Shown: piece after piece, positions 6,244-63,705 of the stretch | Numbering within the stretch: position 1 is the stretch's first letter | How the letters are laid out: the number at the start of each line of letters is the position of its first letter | Assembly: GCF_010672525.1 (NCBI RefSeq) | Contig: NZ_JAAHGH010000004.1 | Location: forward strand, 351,964-415,963 | DNA: 64,000 nucleotides | Source of the DNA: Okeania sp. SIO2B3 | Lineage (GTDB): Bacteria > Cyanobacteriota > Cyanobacteriia > Cyanobacteriales > Microcoleaceae | Reading direction: 5' to 3' | Position numbers and translations under genes: made by a program | The notes under the pieces: generated by a model | The model's input: only the letters and a program-made list of their open reading frames with translations | What the model was told of the DNA's origin: nothing | The model's database searches: none

Positions 6244-6875
6244 CTTTGCTGGAAGAAAGGCAGAGGGCAGCTATGCTGTTTGCGTAGCATGACCTAGGAA
6301 AGGGTTTTTTCCAATTGTGACTTAATTCTATACACGCTCCGATGCTACCGGACATGAGATGAGAAATAAAATCAACTTAGGCGAATAAATCTAGTTATAT
6401 CAAGTCAATTCTTTGTGATATAGAGCAAATTTTCTTATTCTTCCCGTACCGTCACACACCCTACTCGATCTTTTGTTGACAAACAACCTCTTAAAACAAG
6501 AAAATAATTAACTACTTTTGTGAATCTATAATACCAAGCGTGAAAAAAGAATGTTACGAATAGTAAGAGCAATAAAAAGACTTCACAGGAGATGTCCCTT
6601 TGAAAAAAAAAGATAATTTATGCCATAAAAAATGGTATTAAAGCCATTCCCATATGACTCCTGATTCCTGACTTCCCCTCCTGGGAGGGGCTAGGGGTGG
6701 GTTGACTCCTAAGAAATATCCTAGTTATTTGTAGCAAAAATTTATCAAATTGGTATAATATCATGTTCGGATAATCAGCGATCAAAAACTTTATCCCTTC
6801 TAACCTTTTCTTCCCTTCTGCCTTCTGCCTTCTCCTCCAAAGTGTAAGTATTCAAGCAAACATGATATAATACGG

Positions 6876-25425: not shown

Positions 25426-26498
25426 TTGGGTGTTATACCAATTTTATGTGAAGTGGCACAGAATTAGGTGTTATATAGCTATCAGGATAATTATTTATCG
25501 TATAATTCAGTAGTTATAATACTACGTAAATAGGGCGCTGACATTGATCGATCCTCTTTGCATTTGCGTAGCATCCCGTAGGAAAGCATTTGAACAGGAA
25601 AAACTCAGCCAGGGATTACTTGCGCCTTCTGAGTCCTGACTTCTGAGTTGCGCTTAGAGTTATAGTACTTGGGAGAAAGGAAGAATGAACAATGAGAGTG
25701 GGAAAAAATCTTGGGATATTCCAGCATTTGATCTTTGCATTGAATGGAACTAGATCGGCAAAACAGAAATTATATTACGGTCAAATCATTTTATTAAGCT
25801 TCTAGGCATAGCCAAATTCTTAATTCCAAAATACACTAAATTTTACTTTTGAGCAATCAAGGCTATATTGTTTATCTATCAATATTTTCAGCTTTTTCTA
25901 GAGTGGCAGGAAATATAGGTGCGATCGCATCTTTTTTCGCCCTAAATTACACCCAAAAAAGGGATGTTGAACTAATTTTGCTAATTTGATTTTAAATAAC
26001 TAATATTTAATTTAACTTTTGATAATTTTTAATTATTTAAGTATTTGTAGCTACTTATCCAAGACATGGACAAGTTTAAATAGGGTTTGCTGAAAAAGTC
26101 TTTTTAGCAAGTGGGAGACAGGAGACAGAATACAGGAGACAGAAGGCAGGAGGCAGGAGACAACCCACCCCTAACCCCTCCGGTAGAGGGCAAGGCTGTT
26201 TCATTCTCGATAGACACGGGGACGCGGAGACACGGAGAAACGGGGATTGAGGCTTTTAAGTGGCGTTGAACCAAATATCCTCTCAGAGCTTAAAGATGCT
26301 TAGGAAATCTGATTTCTTCTCTTGGTCGATGGTCGGCCAGCTCCGAGACCTCGCCATCCCTCGACCGCTTTTTTCCCCTTAAAAGAGGAGGCTTTAAACC
26401 AGAATTATTAATTATTAATTATTAATTATTCGGTCATGGTAATTAGCAAACTTCTCAAATAACTTCACTGTAAAATTATTCAGATAAATTTTTATTAT

Positions 26499-27676: not shown

Positions 27677-27895
27677 ATAAGCATTTCCTGCGGAATGCTG
27701 CGCAAACAGCTATTAGCGGTCAGCTCTCAGTTTTTTAATAAATAAAGCAAGCATTTGCTTAACTTCGTACGACATTTTAAACAAAGAATTGAAGCACAAG
27801 AACAGCAAGCTTAAATTGTCCACTAAAATTAATAAAGCTGATAACGCAGTTCCGACCATAGGAGGCTAGCTGATAGCTGACTGCTGAATGCTTAC
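27677..27895. mobile_element. MITE family E copy with 8-bp TSD
   Basis: TIR (G/A)TAAGCATT...GCTGAATGCTTAC; TSD AATCCGAT at 27669-27676 and 27896-27903. Confidence 0.9.
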
Positions 27896-32032: not shown

Positions 32033-32588
32033 ATTTTCCTAAGCATTTCCTACGGACTGCTGCGCAAACAGCTGTCAGCTATCAGCCATCAGCTATTAAC
32101 TTAATTGCTCTTGAAAAAGGAATCAGATTTTGTTACTAGAAAAGTGGGAGCATCTTGCTCCCGTGCCAGGCACTTCTTCCTTCTTCCTTCTGAGATGAAA
32201 CTCCGCCTAGATTAATCAACAAGGCGGAGTAATTAATTAAAGAAATAATACTTATATTGAATAATTCCTATAGCAAAGAATGGGTTGTTTAAGACTTATG
32301 CTGATAATAAACTTTAGAGGTTGTCTGATAAGTTCCATGTGCTACATCCAAGCCCCCGCGCATCCCCCAATTTTGGGTGACTTTTAGAAGCAAATTAACT
32401 CGTGTTCCCCCCAAAGTTGGGTGGCTAGGGGGGCAAAATATTAACTCGTGTTCCCCCCAAAGTTGGCTTGCTCGGGGGGCAAAATTCAGTATCAAAAAAC
32501 TTTTCAGATATCCTCTTAGAGAAGTAAATATTTTTTCCACTTTTCTCTATCCCCTATTCCCTGCTATAAAGGAATTTATAGAAATACT

Positions 32589-48938: not shown

Positions 48939-49170
48939 GTCAGAATTTCCTGCGGAATGCTGCGCAAACAGCTATTAGCTGTCAGCTCGAGCGCAACAAG
49001 ACTCTCTCATATTAGGACAGTGTTTAAATTAACAACTGACTTTAAAGGCAAGGGAGCCAACTTTTGTAGTAAGACAATTAATAAAGATTTTATCGTAAAC
49101 TAAAAGCAATAGCTGTTAACGCAGTTCCTCCGATAGGAGGCTAGCTGATGGCTGACAGCTGAATGCTTAT
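48939..49170. mobile_element. MITE family E copy with 8-bp TSD
   Basis: GTAGTCAG at 48931-48938 and 49171-49178; ends ...GGCTGACAGCTGAATGCTTAT. Confidence 0.85.
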
Positions 49171-52658: not shown

Positions 52659-52882
52659 AGCAGTCAGCTAGCCTCCTATGGTCGGAACTGCGTTATCAGC
52701 TTTATTACCTTTAGTGAACAATTTAAGCTCGTTGTTCTTGTGCTTCAATTATTTGTTTAAAATTGTAGTAAAAGTTAAGCAAATACTTGGTTAACTCATT
52801 AAAAAATTGTTTGCGCAGCATGACAAACGAAAGAGCTGACCGCTAATAGCTGTTTGCGCAGCATTCCGCAGGAAATGCTTAC
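52659..52882. mobile_element. MITE family E copy with 8-bp TSD
   Basis: GTTTCACC at 52651-52658 and 52883-52890; GTAAGCATTCAGC...GCTTAC. Confidence 0.93.
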
Positions 52883-56995: not shown

Positions 56996-57595
56996 ATGCG
57001 AACCGCTTACCAGTACAAGCTATTGCCCAACAAAGAACAAGCCACAGTAATAGAGTTGTGGCTGGAATTTTTACGTCGGCAGTACAATTATAGGCTGTAT
57101 GAGCGGTTTTCATGGTGGGAAGAAAACCGCTGTCCGGTTGATGCTTGCCCAATGGTTATGCCAATTACTCAACTAAGAGATAATCCAGATTATTACTCTC
57201 AGAAAAAAGATTTAGTCAATACCAAAGATATAGTTCTTCTGAATAAGACTGGAACACTTTTTCAGCTGAAACTCCTTCAAGGTAAGAAACCCTTGTCTCA
57301 ATCTTAACTGGAATGACTATAAGTTTCCTGAGTACAAGCTGATTCATTCTCAGGTATTACAAGACTACACAAAACGGGTAAAACTTGCTTTTGATAGATG
57401 GTTTATAGTAATAGACAGCGACTTGAATGCTGCGATAAATATCAAAAATAGGGCGGTAGGGCATTCCGTTATTAGAGCTTCGTGGAGCCCGACGGGATAC
57501 CGGGGCTACGAAACGAGAAGCCCACACTATAGCGTCAGCGAACGTATGGGAGATGTCACTATTCAGTCATCATTTTTTTTGTTTCTCAGAATTTA
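56996..57595 (+). pseudogene. IS605-type TnpB relic with internal deletion of the catalytic core
   Basis: MRTAYQYKLLPNKEQATVIELWLEFLRRQYNYRLYERFSWW...; then WNDYKFPEYKLIHSQVLQDYTKRVKLAFDRW joined in frame to FIVIDSDLNAAINIKNRAVGHSV. Confidence 0.85.
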
Positions 57596-59640: not shown

Positions 59641-60496
59641 AAATTTTCAACCCTCTCCTGGAAACTTGAAAGGAGGAAAAAATCTTTTTAGCCAGTCCTC
59701 TTGTTTTAAAAAGGGTTTCCTGACGGAATGCTCCGCAAACAGCAATTCAGTATTCAGCAAGTGATTTATACTTAAACCGAGAGAAATGCAATTTCAAAAA
59801 GGATTTATATTCGCTTTATCTAGCGAAGTTGGTATTAAGATGAAAATCAAATCTTATTTGCTTAAACCACATAAACTATATATAGCTGTCCTAAATAAGT
59901 TTTGAACAAATGTTAGTTATCTAAATACTGATGGTTACTTCTCTTGATATCTAACTAATGTTCATATTCCATCTAGAATGGCTATAGTGATTTATGTTCA
60001 TATTAATTATCTTTTCTCTTATAGCCCACATTCGGAACTTCAATTTGTCTCATTAAAAGTAGTATATAAATCCGTAGTTTGGTAGGTATTTATACTATGC
60101 AAATCATCTCAATTACTTTTTTCGTCGATCAAATTCCGAGTCAAAAATTTACGCATAAATACTTGCTCTGATGATTACTCAATCACGGCAGCTATGATTT
60201 TCTTCTAAAATTCTGTCTCTTGTCTTCCCCTCCTGGGAGGGGGAGGGGCGAGGGGTGGGTTGTCTCCTGACTCCTAATTCTATACTACATTTTGTGGTGC
60301 GGAATGTGGGTTATAGGTTTAATACCCTAGCTTTACCCTCAATGTCCACAATTATTTGGGGTTTTAATCTCCATAAATTGTTCCTTGTTCCTTGTTCAAG
60401 AATAATTAGTAGTACAACAGCTCTCTGATTTCTATTTGTTGTTGAAATTATTGCATAGCATAATTAACCAATCTGTAAACCGTTATAAATAAAACT

Positions 60497-63440: not shown

Positions 63441-63503
63441 TTTAGCTGACCCACCAATTGCGGTGAAAAAGTCCCCAAAGAATTAAACATACGAACTCAT
63501 TCT

Positions 63504-63705
63504 TGTCCCCATTGCTGTGTTGTGATTGACCGCGACTTGTTTGCGTAGCATGACAAACGGAAATGCAGCAATAAATATAAAAAATAGGGCGGCAGGGCAT
63601 TCCGCCCTTAAAGCACGCGCTTGTCCGACGGGGTACCGGGACTGCGAAACGAGAAGTCCACACTATAGCTTCAGCTTAGTGTGGGAGCATGTCACCATCT
63701 AAAAT
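63504..63705 (+). pseudogene. TnpB C-terminal relic plus IS605-type right end, disrupted by a 22-bp insert
   Basis: CPHCCVVIDRDL-[tttgcgtagcatgacaaacgga]-NAAINIKNRA; right-end hairpin CCCACACTA...TAGTGTGGG. Confidence 0.8.

Follow-up and report, generated by a model that had tools for sequence, protein, structure and literature searches.

Precise insertion and in-place tail replacement in a small dispersed repeat of Okeania

Results

A 22-nt insert in a tnpB remnant

The window (the whole 64-kb stretch of Okeania sp. SIO2B3 DNA analysed here) holds a tnpB remnant that carries a short insert, a paralogous remnant that lacks it, and nine full copies, this insert included, of an element resembling the small dispersed repeats (SDRs) of other cyanobacteria:

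~63450..63700, + strand: tnpB (IS200/IS605 family) 3′ remnant, C-terminal zinc/RuvC-III part (CPHC..DRDL^NAAINI), holding the insert
63540..63561, + strand: SDR-like insert TTTGCGTAGCATGACAAACGGA, composed of the 12-nt core TTTGCGTAGCAT and the tail GACAAACGGA
~57405..57560, + strand: paralogous tnpB 3′ remnant with the empty site GACTTG^AATGC
6279..6299, + strand: SDR copy, tail GACCTAGGA, in GCTATGCTG^AAGGG
25563..25583, + strand: SDR copy, tail CCCGTAGGA
27686..27706, − strand: SDR copy, tail TCCGCAGGA, GCTG heptad context
32048..32068, − strand: SDR copy, tail TCCGTAGGA
48948..48968, − strand: SDR copy, tail TCCGCAGGA
52810..52831, + strand: SDR copy, tail GACAAACGAA
52853..52873, + strand: SDR copy, tail TCCGCAGGA, GCTG^AATGCTTAC right end
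59718..59739, − strand: SDR copy, tail TCCGTCAGGA

A preliminary description of this DNA had put forward a 22-nt insertion into a TnpB relic, and the two remnants bear this out: TTTGCGTAGCATGACAAACGGA occupies 63540-63561 between the flanks GACTTG and AATGC, which run uninterrupted as GACTTG|AATGC in the paralogue at ~57420-57430. The junction is unique, with zero bases shiftable, and target duplication is absent; Y1 elements likewise insert without duplicating their target. The host gene belongs to the IS200/IS605 family (PF01385, PF07282; the full-length homologue at locus L129 is a clear OrfB/TnpB by these Pfam models), whereas the 22-mer has been inserted into tnpB and is not a transposon end.

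Translation across the insert gives ..IDRDLFA-stop, confirming the frame shift and added stop described for the window copy. As a general rule, however, disruption does not hold: in other tnpB copies, 21-nt inserts whose variable core base, N, is C stay in frame and add seven residues (DRDL-FAQHDLG-NAAINI). Long open tnpB frames with an in-frame SDR lie at L129 (319-1656) and at L140, L240, L276, L281 and L284; in these predicted proteins the SDR would add about seven residues (FAQHDLG) right after the RuvC-III motif DRD(L).

The insert belongs to an abundant repeat family

Allowing at most two mismatches, TTTGCGTAGCATGAC matches four places in the window versus 0.08 expected, and 259 places in the whole 10-Mb genome, where the reversed control has 8. 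The family to which the insert belongs is a small dispersed mobile repeat of 21-23 nt, built from a 12-nt core, TTTGCGNAGCAT, followed by 9-11 nt of tail; the further copies named in the preliminary description, at 6279-6299 (+) and 59718-59739 (−), are real. With at most one substitution, the core occurs at 247 sites in ~1.1 Mb of the same genome, stretches that also underlie the flank statistics and heptamer counts below and were mostly picked for containing the repeat. The tails that follow it form a small set: GACCTAGGA, GACAAACGGA, GACCTTAGGA, TCCGCAGGA, TCCGTAGGA, TCCGTCAGGA, TCCGGAACGGA and others.

Most copies have C or G as the core base N. In these repeat-enriched stretches, three heptamers, GCGCAGC, GCGGAGC and GCGTAGC, outnumber their reversed controls 5- to 13-fold, with GCGAAGC hardly commoner than its own. 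A given host context often shows a single N alongside varying tails; the idea that the adjoining target base sets N was rejected, as no clear rule emerged. Copies with TCC tails can be drawn as a tandem pair of GNA-loop mini-hairpins (TGC-GNA-GCA and TCC-GNA-GGA), the loop base being free in both; GAC tails lack the second hairpin. The two-hairpin structure is a drawing, since the folding energies of the element showed no clear excess over shuffles, and an unusual single-strand stability was accordingly rejected.

The element also nests within its own copies, at TTTGCG^AAGCAT. Composites of two SDRs, with the inner tail CCCGTAGGG inside TTTGCG^AAGCAT, stand at the tnpB junction in several species (L136, L138, L244, L283, L288, L292 and L304).

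Among the matches listed in a scan of the genome collection, the GACAAACGGA form occurred only in Okeania species, Hydrocoleum sp. CS-953 and one Microcoleaceae assembly. When we surveyed two forms of the repeat across 59 related genomes, both were abundant in all five Okeania genomes (genus g1) and in three large genomes of genus g7, and one g8 genome has predominantly TCC tails. The remaining g7 genomes and one g5 genome have few copies, and the other sampled members of the family and order have none. The outgroup genome G011 has 156 TCC-type and 6 GAC-type copies, counted with search patterns that are not fully equivalent. Among its otherwise exact matches to the TCC pattern, each of the two loop positions varies freely over A, C, G and T.

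Copies insert precisely at (T/C)G^AA

The preliminary description had also suggested a preferred TG^AA target. To tabulate flanks, we clustered copies by their flanking sequence into 49 distinct contexts, the clusters serving as a proxy for independent insertions. G occupies position −1 in 44 of the 49 and A position +1 in 46; position +2 is A in 41, and position −2 is T in 31 and C in 15. Of these junctions, 23 read TG^AA and 10 CG^AA, whereas TGAA has a frequency of 0.6% in the genome; a few contexts depart from the rule (TT^AA, GG^TA, CG^TG). The proposed preference thus stands, with G^A strongly enriched, although the motif is better written (T/C)G^AA.

Joining the two flanks of each copy into a single query returned a gap-free match for 230 of 353 queries, and clean pre-insertion sites were found for 21 of 54 contexts. 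Examples include GCTG^AAT GCT in heptad arrays, TTG^AATGC in tnpB, GATTCGCG^AATCGCC and CAGTACCTCTGCCTG^AAGTCAGAGG. Because gap-free pre-insertion versions exist, the flanking motif is part of the target, not of the element. Species further differ in the presence or absence of an SDR at orthologous loci; one such locus is filled in three species and cleanly empty, as GACAGGG^AAGCAATCTC, in G004 (Okeania sp. SIO1I7), with flanks at 92-95% identity. Together, these comparisons show that SDR copies insert precisely at (T/C)G^AA, without target duplication or loss, and that pre-insertion sites persist.

The sequences that host SDRs are often palindromic. Targeting of hairpin loops was considered and found unsupported, as stems at the junctions are no longer than at random (T/C)GA(A/G) sites.

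One tnpB junction is repeatedly filled and empty

We then scored the tnpB junction in five genomes, finding 31 filled and 61 empty copies. TG precedes the junction in 30 of the 31 filled copies versus 15 of the 61 empty ones, the other 46 lacking it (Fisher p = 6e-12, with ancestry ignored), so homologous tnpB copies also uphold the target preference. The inserts at this single position vary in tail (GACAAACGGA, GACCTAGGA or TCCGTAGGA) and in N (C, T or G), and include nested pairs. On a tree built from 83 tnpB flanks after taking out the insert, filled copies are interspersed with empty ones, with 19 changes of the empty label, at least 10 of them forced by supported branches. A single insertion inherited unchanged by all filled copies is incompatible with this tree, on which gains and losses are inseparable.

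This pattern is what a site-specific recombinase or Y1-type transposase might leave behind, were it to remove an SDR precisely and put another variant at the same (T/C)G^AA. Such excision and re-insertion would fit the several variants at one tnpB junction, the mixed tree with its forced empty-state changes, the precise joining without duplication and the existence of filled and empty orthologous sites. However, both repeat-bearing and repeat-free genomes contain genes for Y1 transposases and reverse transcriptases, leaving no discriminating partner; neither gene was retained as a marker of SDR-bearing genomes.

Tails are replaced as blocks at orthologous loci

The window locus has an orthologue, L291, in G004, with 95.5% identity over 1519 nt. 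The two are identical for 86 bases before the insert, through the 12-nt core, and for 37 bases after the insert, but the window tail is GACAAACGGA and the L291 tail is TCCGTAGGA. To find further cases, we searched four sister genomes with probes for 36 loci of the SIO2B3 genome and read the candidates base by base. At nine orthologous loci, the window's included, the flanks and the 5′ half of the element are conserved and the 3′ half (9-10 nt) differs: one species has GACAAACGGA or GACCTAGGA where another usually has TCCGTAGGA. The switched pairs include L043/L350, L088/L320, L036/L335 and L010/L418; L106/L367, where the SIO2B3 genome, G004 and G001 keep GACC or CACC; L003 with both L322 and L329, where G001 keeps GACC; and the nested composites L136/L304 and L138/L292, in which the inner insertion is the same and the outer tail differs.

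Across the nine pairs, edits fall at 35 of 84 tail positions and 4 of 96 core positions, figures that come from pairs picked for differing tails and do not give an unbiased rate. An unselected table of 74 ortholog comparisons, some of them reciprocal, contains 19 identical copies, 19 empty sites, 15 copies with one or two tail edits, 10 with at least three, 7 with core edits only and 4 others; about half of the compared filled copies show no change or point changes only. Where orthologues differ in this way, one tail of the family has been swapped for another as a block, with the core and flanks nearly unchanged. Nearly every new tail is already common in the genus, which makes copying likelier than stepwise mutation.

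A second SDR site of L291, orthologous to L049, has the core followed by TTATTACGG, which matches no known tail.

The same window and L291 tnpB tails differ in a second block, at window positions 63599-63605 (GGGCATTCCGCCCTT versus GGGCCCAGACGTCCTT). Each form turns up again in other tnpB copies, so exchange of short blocks may extend beyond the SDR.

Most of the genomes are draft assemblies, compared at the assembly level, and the hosts (tnpB, heptads and others) are themselves repeats, so paralogues taken for orthologues, or misassembly of a short repeat, could mimic tail switches. We consider such an artefact highly improbable: in the best cases the flanks extend into unique sequence at 90-97% identity over 1-2 kb, the same switch appears at unrelated loci and in several independent assemblies, and a 22-nt repeat is far below the length of a sequencing read.

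The orthologous pairs also bear on excision and re-insertion. Because N is mostly conserved and the inner element of nested pairs is kept, they argue against it: the core base is unchanged in most tail-switched orthologues, and retention of the inner element while the outer tail changes is hardly to be expected if whole elements come and go. We regard excision and re-insertion as an unlikely explanation. In two of the nine cases, N changed along with the tail, and given this co-change some events could be re-insertions at the same site.

Local template switching was a further candidate source of the new tails. At the loci with CAGTACC and CGGGATG contexts, no local inverted template for the new tail was found by eye, and with several loci lacking one this source was rejected. 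Because these loci have no local inverted template, the tail source must lie elsewhere.

Discussion

The reading we consider probable is that an SDR-like element inserts precisely and that short-patch copying from other copies later overwrites its tail. Tail replacement would be a short-patch ectopic event, by gene conversion or by template switching during replication, in which the donor would be one of the hundreds of other SDR copies; copying would enter through the shared core and exit through the shared GGA(A) end. For new insertions, the precise G^A joining would fit either a sequence-specific nuclease or transposase, or copying guided by micro-homology. Counting against short-patch copying, a donor copy can be named for none of the events, and tracts of ~10 nt are short for RecA-dependent conversion.

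Tails might even be competing alleles that sweep a genome by overwriting those of resident copies, uncoupled from insertion. This would amount to a biased conversion drive on 10-nt modules, backed by dedicated, possibly RNA-templated copying, with GAC-type tails gaining on ancestral TCC ones. The direction of that gain is suggested by a single outgroup, G011 (156 TCC-type and 6 GAC-type copies), and we find this proposal distinctly unlikely. RNA-templated movement, in which SDR RNA is copied into target DNA, was reportedly proposed for Nostoc SDRs by Elhai et al. One process would then cover both new insertion and in-place overwriting, and reverse transcriptases are common in SDR-bearing genomes; they are, however, common in repeat-free genomes too, and no transcript, primer or dedicated reverse transcriptase was identified, which makes this route very unlikely in our estimation.

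SDR elements of Nostoc punctiforme and relatives reportedly occur within heptad repeats and nested in one another. Their description by Elhai et al. (2008, Genome Res 18:1484) is cited in PMC4390886 and PMC3116915. These SDRs are the closest known kind, which the Okeania repeat resembles by description in its similar size, dispersal, high copy number and precise insertion. In one report, SDR5 splits HIP1 exactly, a precise insertion (PMC4390886). The Okeania element is likewise a dispersed repeat within the 21-27-nt range across many unrelated contexts, its empty sites show precise insertion with no target duplication, and it lies inside tandem heptads (GCTGATA contexts) and within its own copies (TTTGCG^AAGCAT). 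Unlike the Nostoc elements, it is found in Okeania and relatives (Microcoleaceae) and targets (T/C)G^AA; it is compared with SDR1-SDR8 by description.

REP and REPIN elements with RAYT transposases are also short, dispersed and hairpin-prone (PMC3116915, PMC3733652), and REPs are tagged by GTAG or CGTC (PMC3733652). The Okeania repeat, by contrast, has no fixed GTAG or CGTC tag at a hairpin foot, GTAG occurring only inside the core when N is T or in the TCCGTAGGA tail, and no inverted doublets stood out in the copy lists. Higgins put forward gene conversion of REPs in 1988, to judge from the title cited in PMC3116915 and PMC3733652. Template-switch mutation at hairpins similarly replaces blocks of a few bases at inverted repeats (PMC8794818, PMC8604942), but several SDR loci lack a local inverted template and their source appears to be a distant copy.

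What is new here is the in-place replacement of the 3′ half after insertion; this tail exchange, which the preliminary description missed, is the more novel part of the finding. We know of no report of such replacement in SDRs.

How elements of ~22 nt, with no room for transposon ends, manage to move and evolve has long been a puzzle. Okeania genomes offer many empty and filled pairs together with a second process, the block replacement of half an element, that can be traced locus by locus. They yield a target rule that can be tested and a way to tell transposition, RNA-templated insertion and gene conversion apart.
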